A stretch of DNA of 64,000 nt, from positions 310,001-374,000 of the forward strand of contig NZ_KN322983.1 in the NCBI RefSeq assembly GCF_000774145.1, written 5' to 3'. The DNA comes from Pseudomonas mediterranea CFBP 5447 (GTDB lineage Bacteria > Pseudomonadota > Gammaproteobacteria > Pseudomonadales > Pseudomonadaceae). Shown here piece by piece: positions 43,170-47,479 of the stretch (the stretch's first letter is position 1; each line of letters begins with the position of its first letter). Below the pieces are notes generated by a model. It was given only the letters and a program-made list of their open reading frames with translations, was not told the origin of the DNA and ran no database searches. The translations under genes were made by a program, and so were the position numbers.

Positions 43170-44132
43170 GTGAAAGCATTGCAAGGCGTTGAAGGCCAAG
43201 TGGTATGGGCTGATGAGCCAAGTCCTACGTGCGATGTAGGGCAAGTTCGCATTCGTGTGGCGGCTGCCGGCCTGAATCGGGCCGATTTATTGCAGAAAGC
43301 CGGACTTTATCCGCCGCCGCCCGGGGCCAGTCACGTGCTGGGGTTGGAGTGTTCCGGGGTCATCAGCGAGGTTGGGCCGGGCTCGGCCTGGCAGGTAGGC
43401 GACCGCGTGTGTGCGTTGCTCGCCGGCGGTGGCATGGCCGAGGAAGTGGTGGTCGATGGCCGGCATGTGCTGCCAGTGCCCCAGGGCCTGTCGTTGGCTG
43501 AAGCGGCCGCGCTGCCTGAGGTCTACAGCACCGCGTGGCTGAATCTGTTCAAGCTGGCAGGCCTCAAGCCAGGGGAGAAAGTGCTGCTGCACGCCGGCGC
43601 CAGTGGCGTCGGTTCCGCGGCGATCCAACTGTGCAAGGCGTTTGGCAACCCATGCTGGGTCAGCGTCGGCTCTGCCGATCGGCTGGCTTATTGCGAGACG
43701 TTGGGGGCCCAGGGCGGGGTGGTGCGGGCCGACGACATCGAGCGCTTGAACGACTTTGCGCCCTTCGATGTGATCCTCGATCCGGTGGGCGCCAGCTACG
43801 CCAGGCTCAACGTGAAACTTTTGTCAGTTGACGGGCGTTGGGTGTTGATTGGGCTGATGGGCGGACGGGAAAGCCATCTGGACCTGGCGAAGATCCTCGC
43901 CAAGCGTATCCAGTTGCTGGGGTCGACCCTGCGCAGTCGCGACGATCAATTCAAGGCCGATCTGCTGCGAGAACTGGGTGAGCATGTCTGGCCGTTGTTC
44001 ACCGAGAGGCGCCTGAGCCCACAATTGGCCGCGACTTTCTCGATCAAGGACGCCGAAGCAGCGTTTGCCGAGCTGGCGACCAACCAGGTGTCAGGGAAGT
44101 TAGTGCTGGTGATTGATGAAAGTTTGAGCTGA
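43170..44132 (+). CDS. NAD(P)H quinone oxidoreductase (PIG3/QorA-like)
   Basis: 320-residue zinc-free member of the medium-chain dehydrogenase family. AGLNRADLLQKAGLYPPPPG near residue 34 and HAGASGVGSAAIQL near residue 143 (nucleotide binding) mark the PIG3/quinone reductase group. GTG at 43170 follows GGAGG by 4 bases; the longer frame to 43095 lies in the prc promoter region and is rejected. It is divergent from prc. Probably reduces quinones with NADPH. Confidence 0.92.
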   Translation: MKALQGVEGQVVWADEPSPTCDVGQVRIRVAAAGLNRADLLQKAGLYPPPPGASHVLGLECSGVISEVGPGSAWQVGDRVCALLAGGGMAEEVVVDGRHVLPVPQGLSLAEAAALPEVYSTAWLNLFKLAGLKPGEKVLLHAGASGVGSAAIQLCKAFGNPCWVSVGSADRLAYCETLGAQGGVVRADDIERLNDFAPFDVILDPVGASYARLNVKLLSVDGRWVLIGLMGGRESHLDLAKILAKRIQLLGSTLRSRDDQFKADLLRELGEHVWPLFTERRLSPQLAATFSIKDAEAAFAELATNQVSGKLVLVIDESLS

Positions 44133-44160
44133 GTGGGCTTGGCGGGGACGGAAATGGCGC

Positions 44161-44520
44161 CTGTGGGAGCCGAGCTTGCTCGCGATAGCGTCGGATCAGT
44201 TTGCAGCGTAGTTGACTGACCCTCCGCCATCGCGAGCAGGCTCGCTCCCACAAGGGATTGGTGCCCGAACACTGCTTTCATGAACGCCGCGAAAACCTGT
44301 GGGAGCGAGCTTGCTCGCGATGGCGGCACCACAGTCAACATCGAGGCAAGCTGACCCACCGCCATCGCGAGCAAGCTCGGCTCCCACAAGGGGTGCCCGA
44401 ACATTGCTCTCATGAACTCCGCGAAAACCTGTGGGAGCGAGCCTGCTCGCGATGGCGGCACCACAGACAACATCGTGCAAACTGCCTCACCGCCATCGTG
44501 AGCAAGCTCGGCTCCCACAG
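44161..44520. repeat. Array of six REP units with a 132-base tandem duplication
   Basis: Six REP units alternate in orientation (near 44161, 44228, 44297, 44362, 44428 and 44491). The stretch from GTGCCCGAACACTGCTTTCA (44261) is repeated from 44393 with about 90 per cent identity, including spacer sequence, so two of the three pairs arose by tandem duplication. No gene lies in the roughly 600 bases from 44133 to 44733. Confidence 0.92.
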
Positions 44521-44548
44521 GGTTCCAAATGTCCGGCTGCTGGTCCGA

Positions 44549-44566
44549 ACTGTCATTCCTGACAGT
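44549..44566. promoter_or_regulatory. Palindromic box 1 before the EF-hand/VMO-I genes
   Basis: ACTGTCA-TTCC-TGACAGT is a perfect 7-bp inverted repeat followed by TAGACG. An equivalent site lies exactly 80 bases further on, so both are probably bound by the same regulator. Confidence 0.6.
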
Positions 44567-44629
44567 AGACGCCACCTGCTGTACGCCGGTTAATACCTGT
44601 CGATTTCACTCACTAGATGGATATACACT

Positions 44630-44645
44630 CTGTCAAGTCTGACAG
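44630..44645. promoter_or_regulatory. Palindromic box 2 before the EF-hand/VMO-I genes
   Basis: CTGTCA-AGTC-TGACAG is a perfect 6-bp inverted repeat followed by TAGACG, as in box 1. A -10-like TATACA (44622-44627) ends just before it, a usual place for a repressor operator. A third half site, CTGACAG, is at 44714. The general form CTGT-N8-ACAG also resembles a LexA box, but the centre is not AT-rich. Confidence 0.6.
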
Positions 44646-44733
44646 TAGACGGCGCGGAGACAGCCGCTCTAGATTGGCCATTGAGAGTAATAGAGGTCTC
44701 TCTGATCGTTTCCCTGACAGAAGAGGTGCCGTG

Positions 44734-44976
44734 ATGGCCAAACAAGAGATCCGCCTGTCCAAAGAAGATATTGATGACGACAGCTCACCCGATATTCTCG
44801 TGGAGTTCTATAAAGACGAGGCGCTGCAGTTCGCGACTTTTATCTCCGCTTCAAAAAAGAACGGTGCCTACGATACCGTCAACGTCAAGACTGACACCGA
44901 TGCTGATGGCGATATGGACGTGCAGGACGAAAATGCCCTGCTGGAACTGGCCAAGGCCTTTTCCGTGTTCGAGTAG
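44734..44976 (+). CDS. Small acidic protein with EF-hand-like calcium loop
   Basis: 80-residue acidic protein without signal peptide or membrane helix. Residues 54-65 (DTDADGDMDVQD) have Asp at loop positions 1, 3, 5, 7, 9 and 12 with Gly at 6, the pattern of an EF-hand calcium loop. The rest is not recognised. AGAGGTG lies 3-9 bases before the ATG; a GTG one codon earlier is an alternative. It is followed 9 bases later by the VMO-I gene, whose start lies in a hairpin that begins at this gene's last base, so translation of the two is probably coupled. Confidence 0.68.
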   Translation: MAKQEIRLSKEDIDDDSSPDILVEFYKDEALQFATFISASKKNGAYDTVNVKTDTDADGDMDVQDENALLELAKAFSVFE

Positions 44977-44997
44977 TGAGGAGGTATGTCTCCTCAC
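44976..44997 (+). promoter_or_regulatory. Hairpin enclosing the VMO-I start codon
   Basis: GTGAGGAG-GTATGT-CTCCTCAC is a perfect 8-bp stem whose left arm holds the ribosome site (GAGGAG) and whose 6-base loop holds the ATG. The stem begins at the last base of the upstream stop codon. A ribosome finishing the upstream gene would open the hairpin, so the structure fits strict translational coupling; a protein or RNA partner could also act on it. Confidence 0.65.
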
Positions 44998-45588
44998 GCC
45001 GCACTACGGACATTGGTGTTCGCGCTCTCCCTTGGCAGCTTGGCGTCGACCTGGGCACAAGTGCCATCGGACACTTCGGAACAAGGATCCTGGGGGGAGT
45101 GGGGGCCGCCTGCGTATTGTCCGGCGGGTCAGTATGTCTGGGGATTTCGTGTCAAGGGTGAGCCCTACCAGGGCAACGGTGACGACACGGCCCTGAATGC
45201 GGTGCAGCTCATCTGCAAGAACGGAGCCTCGGGTGTACCCACGTACATTCACAGTCGTGAAGGAGGGTGGGGATCCTGGGGCAGGGACCATGTTTGCCGT
45301 GAGACGCCCGTCATCGGTTTTGCCATTCAAGTGGAGCGGTTTCAGGGCAAGGACAAGGAAAAGGGTTCGAAGGACGATACCGCCGCCGGCAATATCAAGA
45401 TGGACTGCGGGTCGGAAATCCTGACGGGCGATCCGCCTGCCGCGTGGGGGGAGTGGACTGGATTTTACCGATGCGTCGATGGCAATGGGTACCAGAAAGT
45501 CAGGGGGTTCCGCACCAGAGTGGAACCTGACCAGGGCAACGGCGACGACACGGCCCTGAACGCGATGCAGGTGTATTGCGGCTTCTAG
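44986..45588 (+). CDS. Secreted VMO-I (vitelline membrane outer layer I) domain protein
   Basis: 200-residue protein. A signal peptide (residues 1-24, cut after STWA) is followed by three repeats of the VMO-I beta-prism: GSWGEWG...ALNAVQLIC (34-77), GGWGSWG...GNIKMDC (93-141) and AAWGEWT...ALNAMQVYC (152-198), each with the QG-GDDTA-type loop. Six cysteines are placed in pairs at the repeats, fitting disulphide bonds in the periplasm or outside. VMO-I was first known from bird egg membranes; its bacterial relatives are uncharacterised, with carbohydrate binding suggested by the fold. Partner of the upstream acidic protein. Confidence 0.85.
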   Translation: MSPHAALRTLVFALSLGSLASTWAQVPSDTSEQGSWGEWGPPAYCPAGQYVWGFRVKGEPYQGNGDDTALNAVQLICKNGASGVPTYIHSREGGWGSWGRDHVCRETPVIGFAIQVERFQGKDKEKGSKDDTAAGNIKMDCGSEILTGDPPAAWGEWTGFYRCVDGNGYQKVRGFRTRVEPDQGNGDDTALNAMQVYCGF

Positions 45589-45640
45589 CTCCGATCCGAA
45601 TGGACACCGATCCACACCTGACGGCCATGGCACGCTTATC

Positions 45641-45666
45641 TGTGGGAGCCGAGCTTGCTTGCGATG
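45641..45666. repeat. Single REP unit
   Basis: One REP unit (GTGGGAGCCGAGCTTGCTTG) with two changes from the core lies between the VMO-I gene and the convergent HAD gene. A truncated half (GTGGGAGC) follows at 45777. Confidence 0.8.
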
Positions 45667-45789
45667 GCGTCGGACCCGTTGGCATCCGGTTGACTGACCC
45701 ACCGCCTAGCGCTCGTCCGAGCGAGGGTGTTCCCTATCAGGCTCGGACGCTGCTTTTGTGAACACCTCGATAAACTGTGGGAGCTGTGT

Positions 45790-46443
45790 TCACTTCCAGC
45801 TGTGAATCGGCCACCCGGCCAGTTCGGCATGGGCCTTCAACACCGGGTCCGGGTTCACCACGTGGGGGAAGTCCACCCGCTGCAACAGCGGCAGGTCATT
45901 GCGCGAATCGGAGTAGAAACTCGCCCCCTCCAGGTTTTCTTCCTCGGCGTCCAGCCAGTCCAGCAACCGCGCGATCTTGCCTTCGCGGTAGGTCAGGGTG
46001 CCCACGGTTTTGCCGCTGTACACGCCGTGGGTTACTTCAAGCTCGATCGCCAGGATCTCATCGATGCCCAGGCGTTCGGCAATCGGCCCCACCAAGTGTG
46101 TGCCCGAGGCCGAGATCACCAGGATCCGGTCGCCGGCCTTGCGGTGTTCGGCGACGGCCTTGGTGGCGTCGCTGAAGATGATCGGTTCGATGAAGTCTTC
46201 CACCCAAGGCGCTACCAGGTGTTCGACTTCTGCCGGTGTGCGGCCGATCATCGGTTCCAGGCTGAAGTCCATGTACTCTTCCATGCGCAGCTTGCCGTGG
46301 CTGTAGGCATCCATCAGCTCATTGTTGCGACGCATGAACGACTCGGGATCGACCCAGCCCAGGCGCCCCATCTGCTCGCTCCAGAGGGTGGCGCAATCGC
46401 CGTGGATCAGGGTTTCGTCCAGATCAAAAATTGCCAGGGCCAT
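45790..46443 (-). CDS. HAD superfamily phosphatase (subfamily IB)
   Basis: 217-residue haloacid dehalogenase-type phosphatase. Motif I is AIFDLDETL (residues 4-12), motif II VISASGT near residue 108, the lysine of motif III near K156, and motif IV YSDSRNDLPLL near residue 177. The arrangement matches the SerB-like IB group. It is the last gene of the ABC transport cluster, 46 bases after the ATPase, so it probably dephosphorylates an intermediate made from the imported compound. Substrate unknown. Confidence 0.86.
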   Translation of the reverse strand: MALAIFDLDETLIHGDCATLWSEQMGRLGWVDPESFMRRNNELMDAYSHGKLRMEEYMDFSLEPMIGRTPAEVEHLVAPWVEDFIEPIIFSDATKAVAEHRKAGDRILVISASGTHLVGPIAERLGIDEILAIELEVTHGVYSGKTVGTLTYREGKIARLLDWLDAEEENLEGASFYSDSRNDLPLLQRVDFPHVVNPDPVLKAHAELAGWPIHSWK

Positions 46444-46489
46444 CAGTGCGTTTCCCTTCTCAAAGTCAGCTTCATAATCAACAAAGCCA

Positions 46490-47479
46490 TCAGGCTACCG
46501 CACACAGGGCCGACGGATCGATGGAAAGCGCCAGGCGGGCGCCATCGGGATGCAGGTCGGCGGCCGAGCGGTTGAGCACGTCCACCACCAGTTCCACGCC
46601 GCGGGCCTCGACCCGGTAGCGGATCACGTTGCCCAGCAGGCTGTGGCTGCGGATCAATGCATCCGGTTCGCCGCTGCGACTCAGCTCGATGGCTTCCGGG
46701 CGAATGGCGATACGGCTGTTCACCGGCCGTTGCAGCAATCGGCTGGCGCTGTCGGCGTCCAGCAGGTTGTAGTTGCCGATGAAGCCGGCTGCGAAGACAT
46801 CGACGGGGGCAGTGTAGAGGGTTTCGGCATCGCCGCTCTGTACGATCTTTCCCTGGTTCATCAGGAAAATCCGGTCGGACATGGTCAGGGCTTCTTCCTG
46901 ATCGTGTGTGACGAAAATCGTGGTCAGGCCCAACTCGCGCTGGATCTGTCGGATCTGTTCGCGCAGGTGTTTGCGAATCCGCGCATCCAGGGCGGACAGC
47001 GGTTCGTCCAGCAGCAACAGCCGCGGCCGGGTCACCAGGGAGCGGGCGAGGGCAACGCGTTGGCACTGGCCGCCGGAGAGTTGATGGGGGTAGCGGGTGG
47101 CGAAATCGTGCAGTTCCACCAGGCGCAGGATCTCCTGCACGCGCTGGCGGCTGTCTTCGGCCTGGATCTTTTGCATGCGCAGGCCGAAGGCGACGTTCTG
47201 TTCCACGGTCATGTTGGGGAACAGGGCGTAACTCTGGAACACCATGCCGATGCCGCGCTTTTGCGGGCTCAGGGGGACGATGTCCTGGCCGTCCAGCAGG
47301 ATCTTGCCGGCATCTACCGCCGTCAGTCCGGCAATGCAGCGCAACAGTGTGGACTTGCCGCAGCCGGAAGGGCCGAGGAGGGTGACGAATTCGCCCTTGC
47401 CGATTTCGCAATTGATGTCGCTGAACACCGGCGTGCCCGCGTAGCCTTTTTGCAGGTGTTGGACGCTGACGTAGCTCAT
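46490..47479 (-). CDS. ABC transporter ATP-binding protein
   Basis: 329-residue ATPase. Walker A GPSGCGKST lies near residue 37, the signature LSGGQCQRVALARSL near residue 138, Walker B LLLLDEPLSALD near residue 158 and the H-loop in FVTHDQEEAL near residue 195. A C-terminal TOBE-like domain follows, as in PotA/FbpC-type importers. The ATG overlaps the permease stop (ATGA). Together with two permeases and a binding protein it forms an importer of the spermidine/iron/phosphonate type. Confidence 0.93.
   Translation of the reverse strand: MSYVSVQHLQKGYAGTPVFSDINCEIGKGEFVTLLGPSGCGKSTLLRCIAGLTAVDAGKILLDGQDIVPLSPQKRGIGMVFQSYALFPNMTVEQNVAFGLRMQKIQAEDSRQRVQEILRLVELHDFATRYPHQLSGGQCQRVALARSLVTRPRLLLLDEPLSALDARIRKHLREQIRQIQRELGLTTIFVTHDQEEALTMSDRIFLMNQGKIVQSGDAETLYTAPVDVFAAGFIGNYNLLDADSASRLLQRPVNSRIAIRPEAIELSRSGEPDALIRSHSLLGNVIRYRVEARGVELVVDVLNRSAADLHPDGARLALSIDPSALCAVA

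Follow-up and report, generated by a model that had tools for sequence, protein, structure and literature searches.

Paired palindromic boxes ahead of a VMO-I operon in Pseudomonas mediterranea as probable operators of a PpoR-type LuxR solo

What connects a gene for a small acidic protein to the gene for a predicted exported, egg-coat-like VMO-I protein directly behind it, and what is the role of the two palindromic boxes that precede them? The locus lies in a stretch of 64,000 nt (the window; G000:C26:310001-374000, where G000 is the 6.3-Mb genome of Pseudomonas mediterranea CFBP 5447), and a preliminary description took the coupling and shared control of the genes as signs of a functional pair. 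The comparative analysis reported here leads to a different proposal, to which we assign a probability of about 0.75 on the basis of sequence comparisons: the boxes would be operators of a LuxR solo of the PpoR type, and the acidic and VMO-I genes would be interchangeable outputs of its regulon and not a pair.

The box consensus, CTGTCA-N4-TGACAG, is present twice on the + strand of the window, as CTGTCATTCCTGACAG at 44550-44565 (box 1) and CTGTCAAGTCTGACAG at 44630-44645 (box 2), both predicted operators of a LuxR-type regulator, and the starts at 44550 and 44630 bear out the spacing of exactly 80 bp given in the preliminary description. Comparison with an alignment of 79 sites (see below) predicts a + strand promoter after each of them. 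The one behind box 1 (44566-44594) consists of a -35-like TAGACG at 44566-44571, a spacer of 17 nt and a -10-like GTTAAT at 44589-44594, and the one behind box 2 (44646-44675) of TAGACG at 44646-44651, a spacer of 18 nt, which is the commonest spacer plus one base, and a -10-like TAGATT at 44670-44675. Since each box has such a promoter, the operon would carry two in tandem. The open reading frames that follow on the same strand are arranged as first described, with an acidic protein of 80 aa and a calculated pI of 4.1 (44734-44976), a gap of 9 nt, and a VMO-I protein of 200 aa (44986-45588). REP-type repeats (GAGCTTGCTCGCGATGG-like) are found on either side of this unit, at 44163-44520 and 45641-45687.

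Calcium loops follow the pattern DxDxDGxxDxxD, and the acidic protein has one such loop, DTDADGDMDVQD (44893-44928, + strand; residues 54-65), for which metal binding is predicted. The protein matched no Pfam or NCBIfam family and has no clear relative among solved structures. Its relatives, present in 20 of 149 genomes of the genus, show that the gene is conserved beyond this strain, and the loop forms the conserved core of the family, with D54, D56 and D65 invariant in 17 sequences. The description of this protein as EF-hand-like holds for the loop and for the helix behind it, as in EF-hands and dockerins, but not for a helix-loop-helix: the AlphaFold model (pLDDT 82.6) has a four-stranded sheet, the single loop and then one helix, so that a strand instead of a helix precedes the loop, and the EF-hand and dockerin models of Pfam gave nothing at E ≤ 1. 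A full, classical EF-hand was therefore rejected, and the protein is predicted to bind calcium through its loop. Judged by eye, it lacks a signal-peptide-like start, whereas the VMO-I protein has one (44986-45060, + strand; residues 1-25).

The assignment of the second protein to the three-repeat VMO-I family proved sound. The VOMI model PF03762 matches it at 4e-40 (138.1 bits, against a Pfam cut-off of 25) and the solved hen chain 1vmo at 1.5e-23; the match spans residues 33-198, and the repeats DDTALNA, DDTAAGN and DDTALNA also appear in the 1vmo alignment. Unlike hen VMO-I, the protein is bacterial, stands alone and lies behind a predicted LuxR-type promoter. VMO-I genes occur in 4 of the 149 genus genomes, and among 21 VOMI loci in named genomes the stand-alone form nearest to that of the window is found in P. 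brassicacearum and P. uvaldensis. In other bacteria VOMI is mostly one domain within larger, enzyme-like proteins; the partners in nine other loci scanned were PI-PLC-X (4), neutral ceramidase (1), calcineurin-like phosphoesterase (1) and fn3 (3), the three enzyme fusions being found at L212-L214, L216, L218 and L222. These associations, together with a passage that calls VMO-I 'probably a carbohydrate-binding domain' (PMC6299612), suggest a role in glycan binding, and the protein of the window is predicted to be an exported, glycan-binding beta-prism protein.

Sites related to the box also precede other VOMI genes, at distances that use assumed start codons. One-mismatch boxes lie 60-61 nt ahead of the genes of Pseudomonas sp. 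7P_10.2_Bac1 and P. psychrophila, and a symmetric two-mismatch variant, CTATCA-N4-TGATAG, lies 107-108 nt ahead of those of P. congelans, P. caricapapayae and G056. The variant sites (L038 rc 226-241, L222 1816-1831 and L223 1791-1806) are followed by phosphoesterase-VOMI genes. No such box was found at the VOMI loci of P. monteilii (L212) and of another Pseudomonas (L221), or at four non-Pseudomonas VOMI loci tested. VOMI genes of more than one architecture, stand-alone and fused, thus lie behind this type of site.

The site is a recurrent element of the genome. A search for boxes ahead of other genes, as had been suggested, returned 22 exact copies in all, the two of the window included, mostly just upstream of genes. 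The shared control proposed for the two genes is supported and extends far beyond this operon. The number of sites exceeds chance, since the reversed pattern gave 0 sites and about 0.4 are expected from the 12 fixed bases. Across the 149 genus genomes the count ranges from 0 to 35, with at least one box in 101 and at least three in 81, and the reversed pattern never exceeds 2; outside the genus but within the family (129 genomes, 18 genera), no genome exceeds one box and 19 have one.

To describe the surroundings of the box, 99 unique sites were collected from part of the 149 genomes (G000, G105, G125, G037, G079, G085, G140, G017, G057 and G043, together with a few loci of the small gene). 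Three lie within called genes. A gene start was called within 300 nt of 79 sites, at a median distance of 90 nt, and for 20 sites none was called in that range; these calls are those of a simple codon-usage script that made the VMO-I gene too short in its test. In the alignment of the 79 sites, which was oriented solely by the nearest gene start, the box runs directly into TAGAC, with frequencies of 0.75 for T, 0.63 for A, 0.73 for G and 0.62 for C, and positions +24 to +29 contain a -10-like hexamer (last T 0.72). On average 2.76 of the 6 positions of TATAAT match at +24, compared with 1.40 over all tested offsets, and the peak falls at the same offset for sites of the P. mediterranea genome (n=19) and for the others (n=60). 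This fixed distance places the centre of the box about 44 nt upstream of the likely transcription start. LuxR-type activators at such a position contact RNA polymerase beside the -35 element. These alignments give good support to the form of operator and promoter described here, with the box as an element of an activator-type promoter.

The genes behind the boxes are diverse. In P. mediterranea they encode three propeller proteins with DUF5122, a glucan protein (MdoG), two large proteins that carry bacterial Ig-like domains, an I78 inhibitor and a bestrophin-like protein. Several further products belong to no family, and L022, judged by eye, is a second acidic protein whose sequence has stretches like a calcium loop. 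Box genes elsewhere, named by eye, include those for small cold-shock-like proteins in several genomes (L073, L082, L103, L113, L118 and L121), for large proteins with repeats, for toxin-complex or RHS-like products, for a protein resembling an EF-hand (L202) and for a small regulator of the GerE type (L096). In the lineages with shortened solos described below, a small family behind boxes (L124, L191) resembles, again by eye, the P. mediterranea L033 protein. The regulon is likely to comprise secreted, surface-type and calcium-loop proteins, this operon included. At L024 (5547-5562) and L084 (2001-2016) a box precedes a BvgA-like response regulator whose gene follows that of a BvgS-like hybrid kinase, a possible connection between the regulon and a second signal; the regulator at L096 (2001-2449), a GerE-only protein of 106 aa, is a possible second tier.

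Two proteins of the P. mediterranea genome contain PF03472. One belongs to a cluster (L125 4001-7685, on G000:C30) that lies beside an RND pump and comprises a luxI-like gene, a LuxR gene and one more GerE regulator, in an order resembling PcoI-RfiA-PcoR; given the luxI-like gene, the strain likely makes its own acyl-homoserine lactone (AHL). The other is a solo (G000:C29:521424-522134; L126) flanked by fpr and rlmG, with PF03472 at 1.4e-23 and PF00196 at 2.1e-17. W62, Y66, D75, P76 and W90 are invariant in 15 solo sequences and are presumably the conserved residues of the AHL pocket. Motifs of both flanks accompany 29 of 30 fetched close relatives and one flank accompanies the remaining one (L137), and no box was seen at the solo gene itself in the loci looked at.

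PMC8546723, PMC10134790 and PMC4338825 place PpoR, or 'subgroup A', in the slot between fpr and rlmG, and the solo shares with these proteins the PF03472 and GerE domains and the absence of an adjoining luxI (PMC2703642, PMC8546723, PMC10134790, PMC4338825). According to PMC8546723, no LuxR solo is more widespread among fluorescent pseudomonads than this subgroup, its response mechanism is unknown, and the reporter tests in the same text gave no direct evidence for gene targets and no PpoR-dependent promoter among the flanking genes. Overexpression of PpoR in P. putida WCS358 changed 62 genes directly or indirectly (PMC2703642), and deletion of PplR changed 84 (PMC11543582). Palindromes upstream of LuxR solo units are mentioned as supplement content in PMC4338825, and the available portions of the literature on LuxR solos and PpoR contained no description of the box, of a PpoR operator or of a confirmed direct target gene. 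Elsewhere in the available texts CTGTCA occurs within a primer in the CrbR paper and within a listed phz-box row in the PA23 paper; the main text of the P. syringae motif compendium, as available, has no LuxR, GerE, CTGTCA or TGACAG. The operator and regulon proposed here differ in this respect from the PpoR papers as far as available, which give no operator, and shortened forms, with a DNA-binding domain only, are found here in the same slot.

The box itself resembles the lux box of quorum-sensing LuxR proteins, a palindrome of 16-20 bp with the form CT(N12)AG (PMC4338825, in the part available): the 16-mer fits this form and lies just upstream of the -35 element. It differs in its half-site CTGTCA, its free 4-bp centre and its direct junction to TAGAC, and its bound regulator is deduced from comparison.

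The association between solo and boxes can be followed across the genus. When a close PpoR relative is defined by E ≤ 1e-48, at least three boxes are present in 69 of 71 genomes that contain one, versus 12 of the 78 others, and the Spearman coefficient between PpoR and box number is 0.73 over the 149 related genomes, a statistic that ignores kinship. In seven genomes with 20-30 boxes (G019, G033, G034, G055, G062, G074 and G098) the solo is the only PF03472 protein. A profile search of 27 chosen, mainly box-bearing genomes (these twelve and 15 more) found that each of the 12 has at least a GerE protein of the PpoR type, if a shorter or more distant one: the solo is split across two frames in G088, full-length relatives occupy the slot in G051 and G057, and in G126 it is shortened, the gene call having 77 aa, yet a 190-aa frame matches from profile position 99. 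The remaining eight of the 12 have a DNA-binding domain only.

In nine of the 27 genomes (G018, G020, G022, G050, G056, G068, G085, G115 and G066) the slot protein is a DNA-binding domain only, of 77-87 aa, and eight of these genomes have 3-10 boxes and G066 has 1, a share that is biased because the search favoured box genomes. The corresponding genes are at L172, L174-L179, L181 and L208, and shortened ones at L171 and L170. In these lineages and G126, 22 distinct sites (24 readings; 20 oriented readings, 18 of them distinct) show the same TAGAC and -10 element.

The recognition helix also varies. Nine genomes (G003, G007, G009, G015, G057, G076, G089, G096 and G130) have full-length relatives with SQST or SKST in this helix, and eight of them have 0-1 boxes, G057 (SQST) having three; the relatives with almost no boxes are at L156, L157, L159-L161, L163 and L167 (also L158 and L165). 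One-mismatch sites number 7-17 in eight SQST/SKST genomes (controls 2-9), 5-8 in four genomes without the gene (controls 0-6) and 20-50 in eight box genomes (controls 3-8), so that the SQST/SKST counts are only partly above those of genomes without the gene. Such solos may use another operator. A simple helix rule is contradicted by G083 and G114, each of which combines an SEST/SPST helix with 10 boxes; G065, with a truncated SQST form, has 1 box. Three genomes with a full-length protein and an RT-type helix have few boxes (G086 with 1, its solo in the slot, G106 with 2 and G116 with 1) and count against the whole reading.

How do these observations bear on other explanations of the locus? A dedicated pair, in which a secreted factor binds carbohydrate and the other protein serves as its partner, draws on the succession of box, small gene and VMO-I gene in both G000 and G125, where the identical order and 9-nt gap make co-transcription likely. 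Yet the genes do not regularly co-occur. G124 has a 95% identical small gene at the same locus, with the same downstream gene, one exact box and one one-mismatch box, but no VMO-I gene; P. brassicacearum CCUG 51508 (L209) has an exact box with the VMO-I start 92 nt on, the same quinone-reductase-like neighbour as in the window and no small gene between; and in P. uvaldensis (G112) the two are on different contigs, each with its own box, one-mismatch before VMO-I and exact before the small gene. Their occurrence in the genus (20 of 149 genomes for the small family versus 4 of 149 for VMO-I) and the signal-peptide-like start on VMO-I alone also speak against a pair, which we regard as very improbable; across these loci the box, and not the gene pair, is the constant element. 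A reading of the boxes as REP-like repetitive or mobile DNA, or as RNA elements, without a regulator, has in its favour the REP-type repeats just upstream (44163-44520), but the boxes hold a fixed distance to a -10-like element near gene starts, their centres vary, the genes behind them are unrelated and an Rfam scan of 44000-46600 gave no match, leaving it a negligible chance.

The alternative with more weight, although we consider it unlikely, accepts the regulon but has the boxes read by another co-inherited regulator (a response regulator, a further protein of the GerE type or some factor outside this analysis), so that the link to PpoR would reflect shared ancestry. This ancestry is a real confounder, as PpoR correlates with a control response regulator (Spearman 0.82) that itself correlates with box number (0.56); a BvgA-like response regulator and the 106-aa GerE protein lie behind boxes (L024, L084 and L096), and G086, G106 and G116 have the solo and only 1-2 boxes. 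Against it, the partial correlation with boxes falls to -0.11 for the control when PpoR is fixed, whereas PpoR retains 0.58, and boxes persist in lineages whose slot protein has lost the ligand domain. Close orthologues of the response regulator occur in just 7 of the 149 genomes, with only background hits in G044, G070, G074, G084 and G141, which have 28-35 boxes. A PpoR-type solo is therefore the likely regulator and its best-supported identity, the main caveats being shared ancestry and the few genomes with a solo but few boxes.

The two boxes of the window are instances of a site found repeatedly ahead of genes in fluorescent-type Pseudomonas genomes. In the mechanism proposed here, the PpoR-type solo from the fpr-rlmG slot would bind the box as a dimer, with AHL also bound where it has a ligand domain, and from its position just upstream of the -35 element would recruit RNA polymerase; in lineages with the DNA-binding domain only, the same promoters would be driven without AHL. 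Tandem box-promoters are predicted to raise or grade the output of the operon, whose acidic protein would bind calcium while the exported VMO-I protein would bind glycans.

Beyond this operon, we lean, at somewhat better than even odds, towards a quorum-listening regulon, so far hidden, which fluorescent pseudomonads would share. In it the fpr-rlmG solo would govern as many as about 35 box promoters and, through them, fast-changing surface and secreted proteins, including VMO-I proteins of the animal egg-coat type, and some lineages may have freed it from the signal by reducing the receptor to its DNA-binding domain. With a defined operator and a set of candidate targets, the question of PpoR targets becomes directly testable, and the DNA-binding-domain-only forms allow one network to be compared in nature with and without a domain that binds the signal. 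In this way, many uncharacterised genes, including bacterial VMO-I, would be brought under one likely cue.
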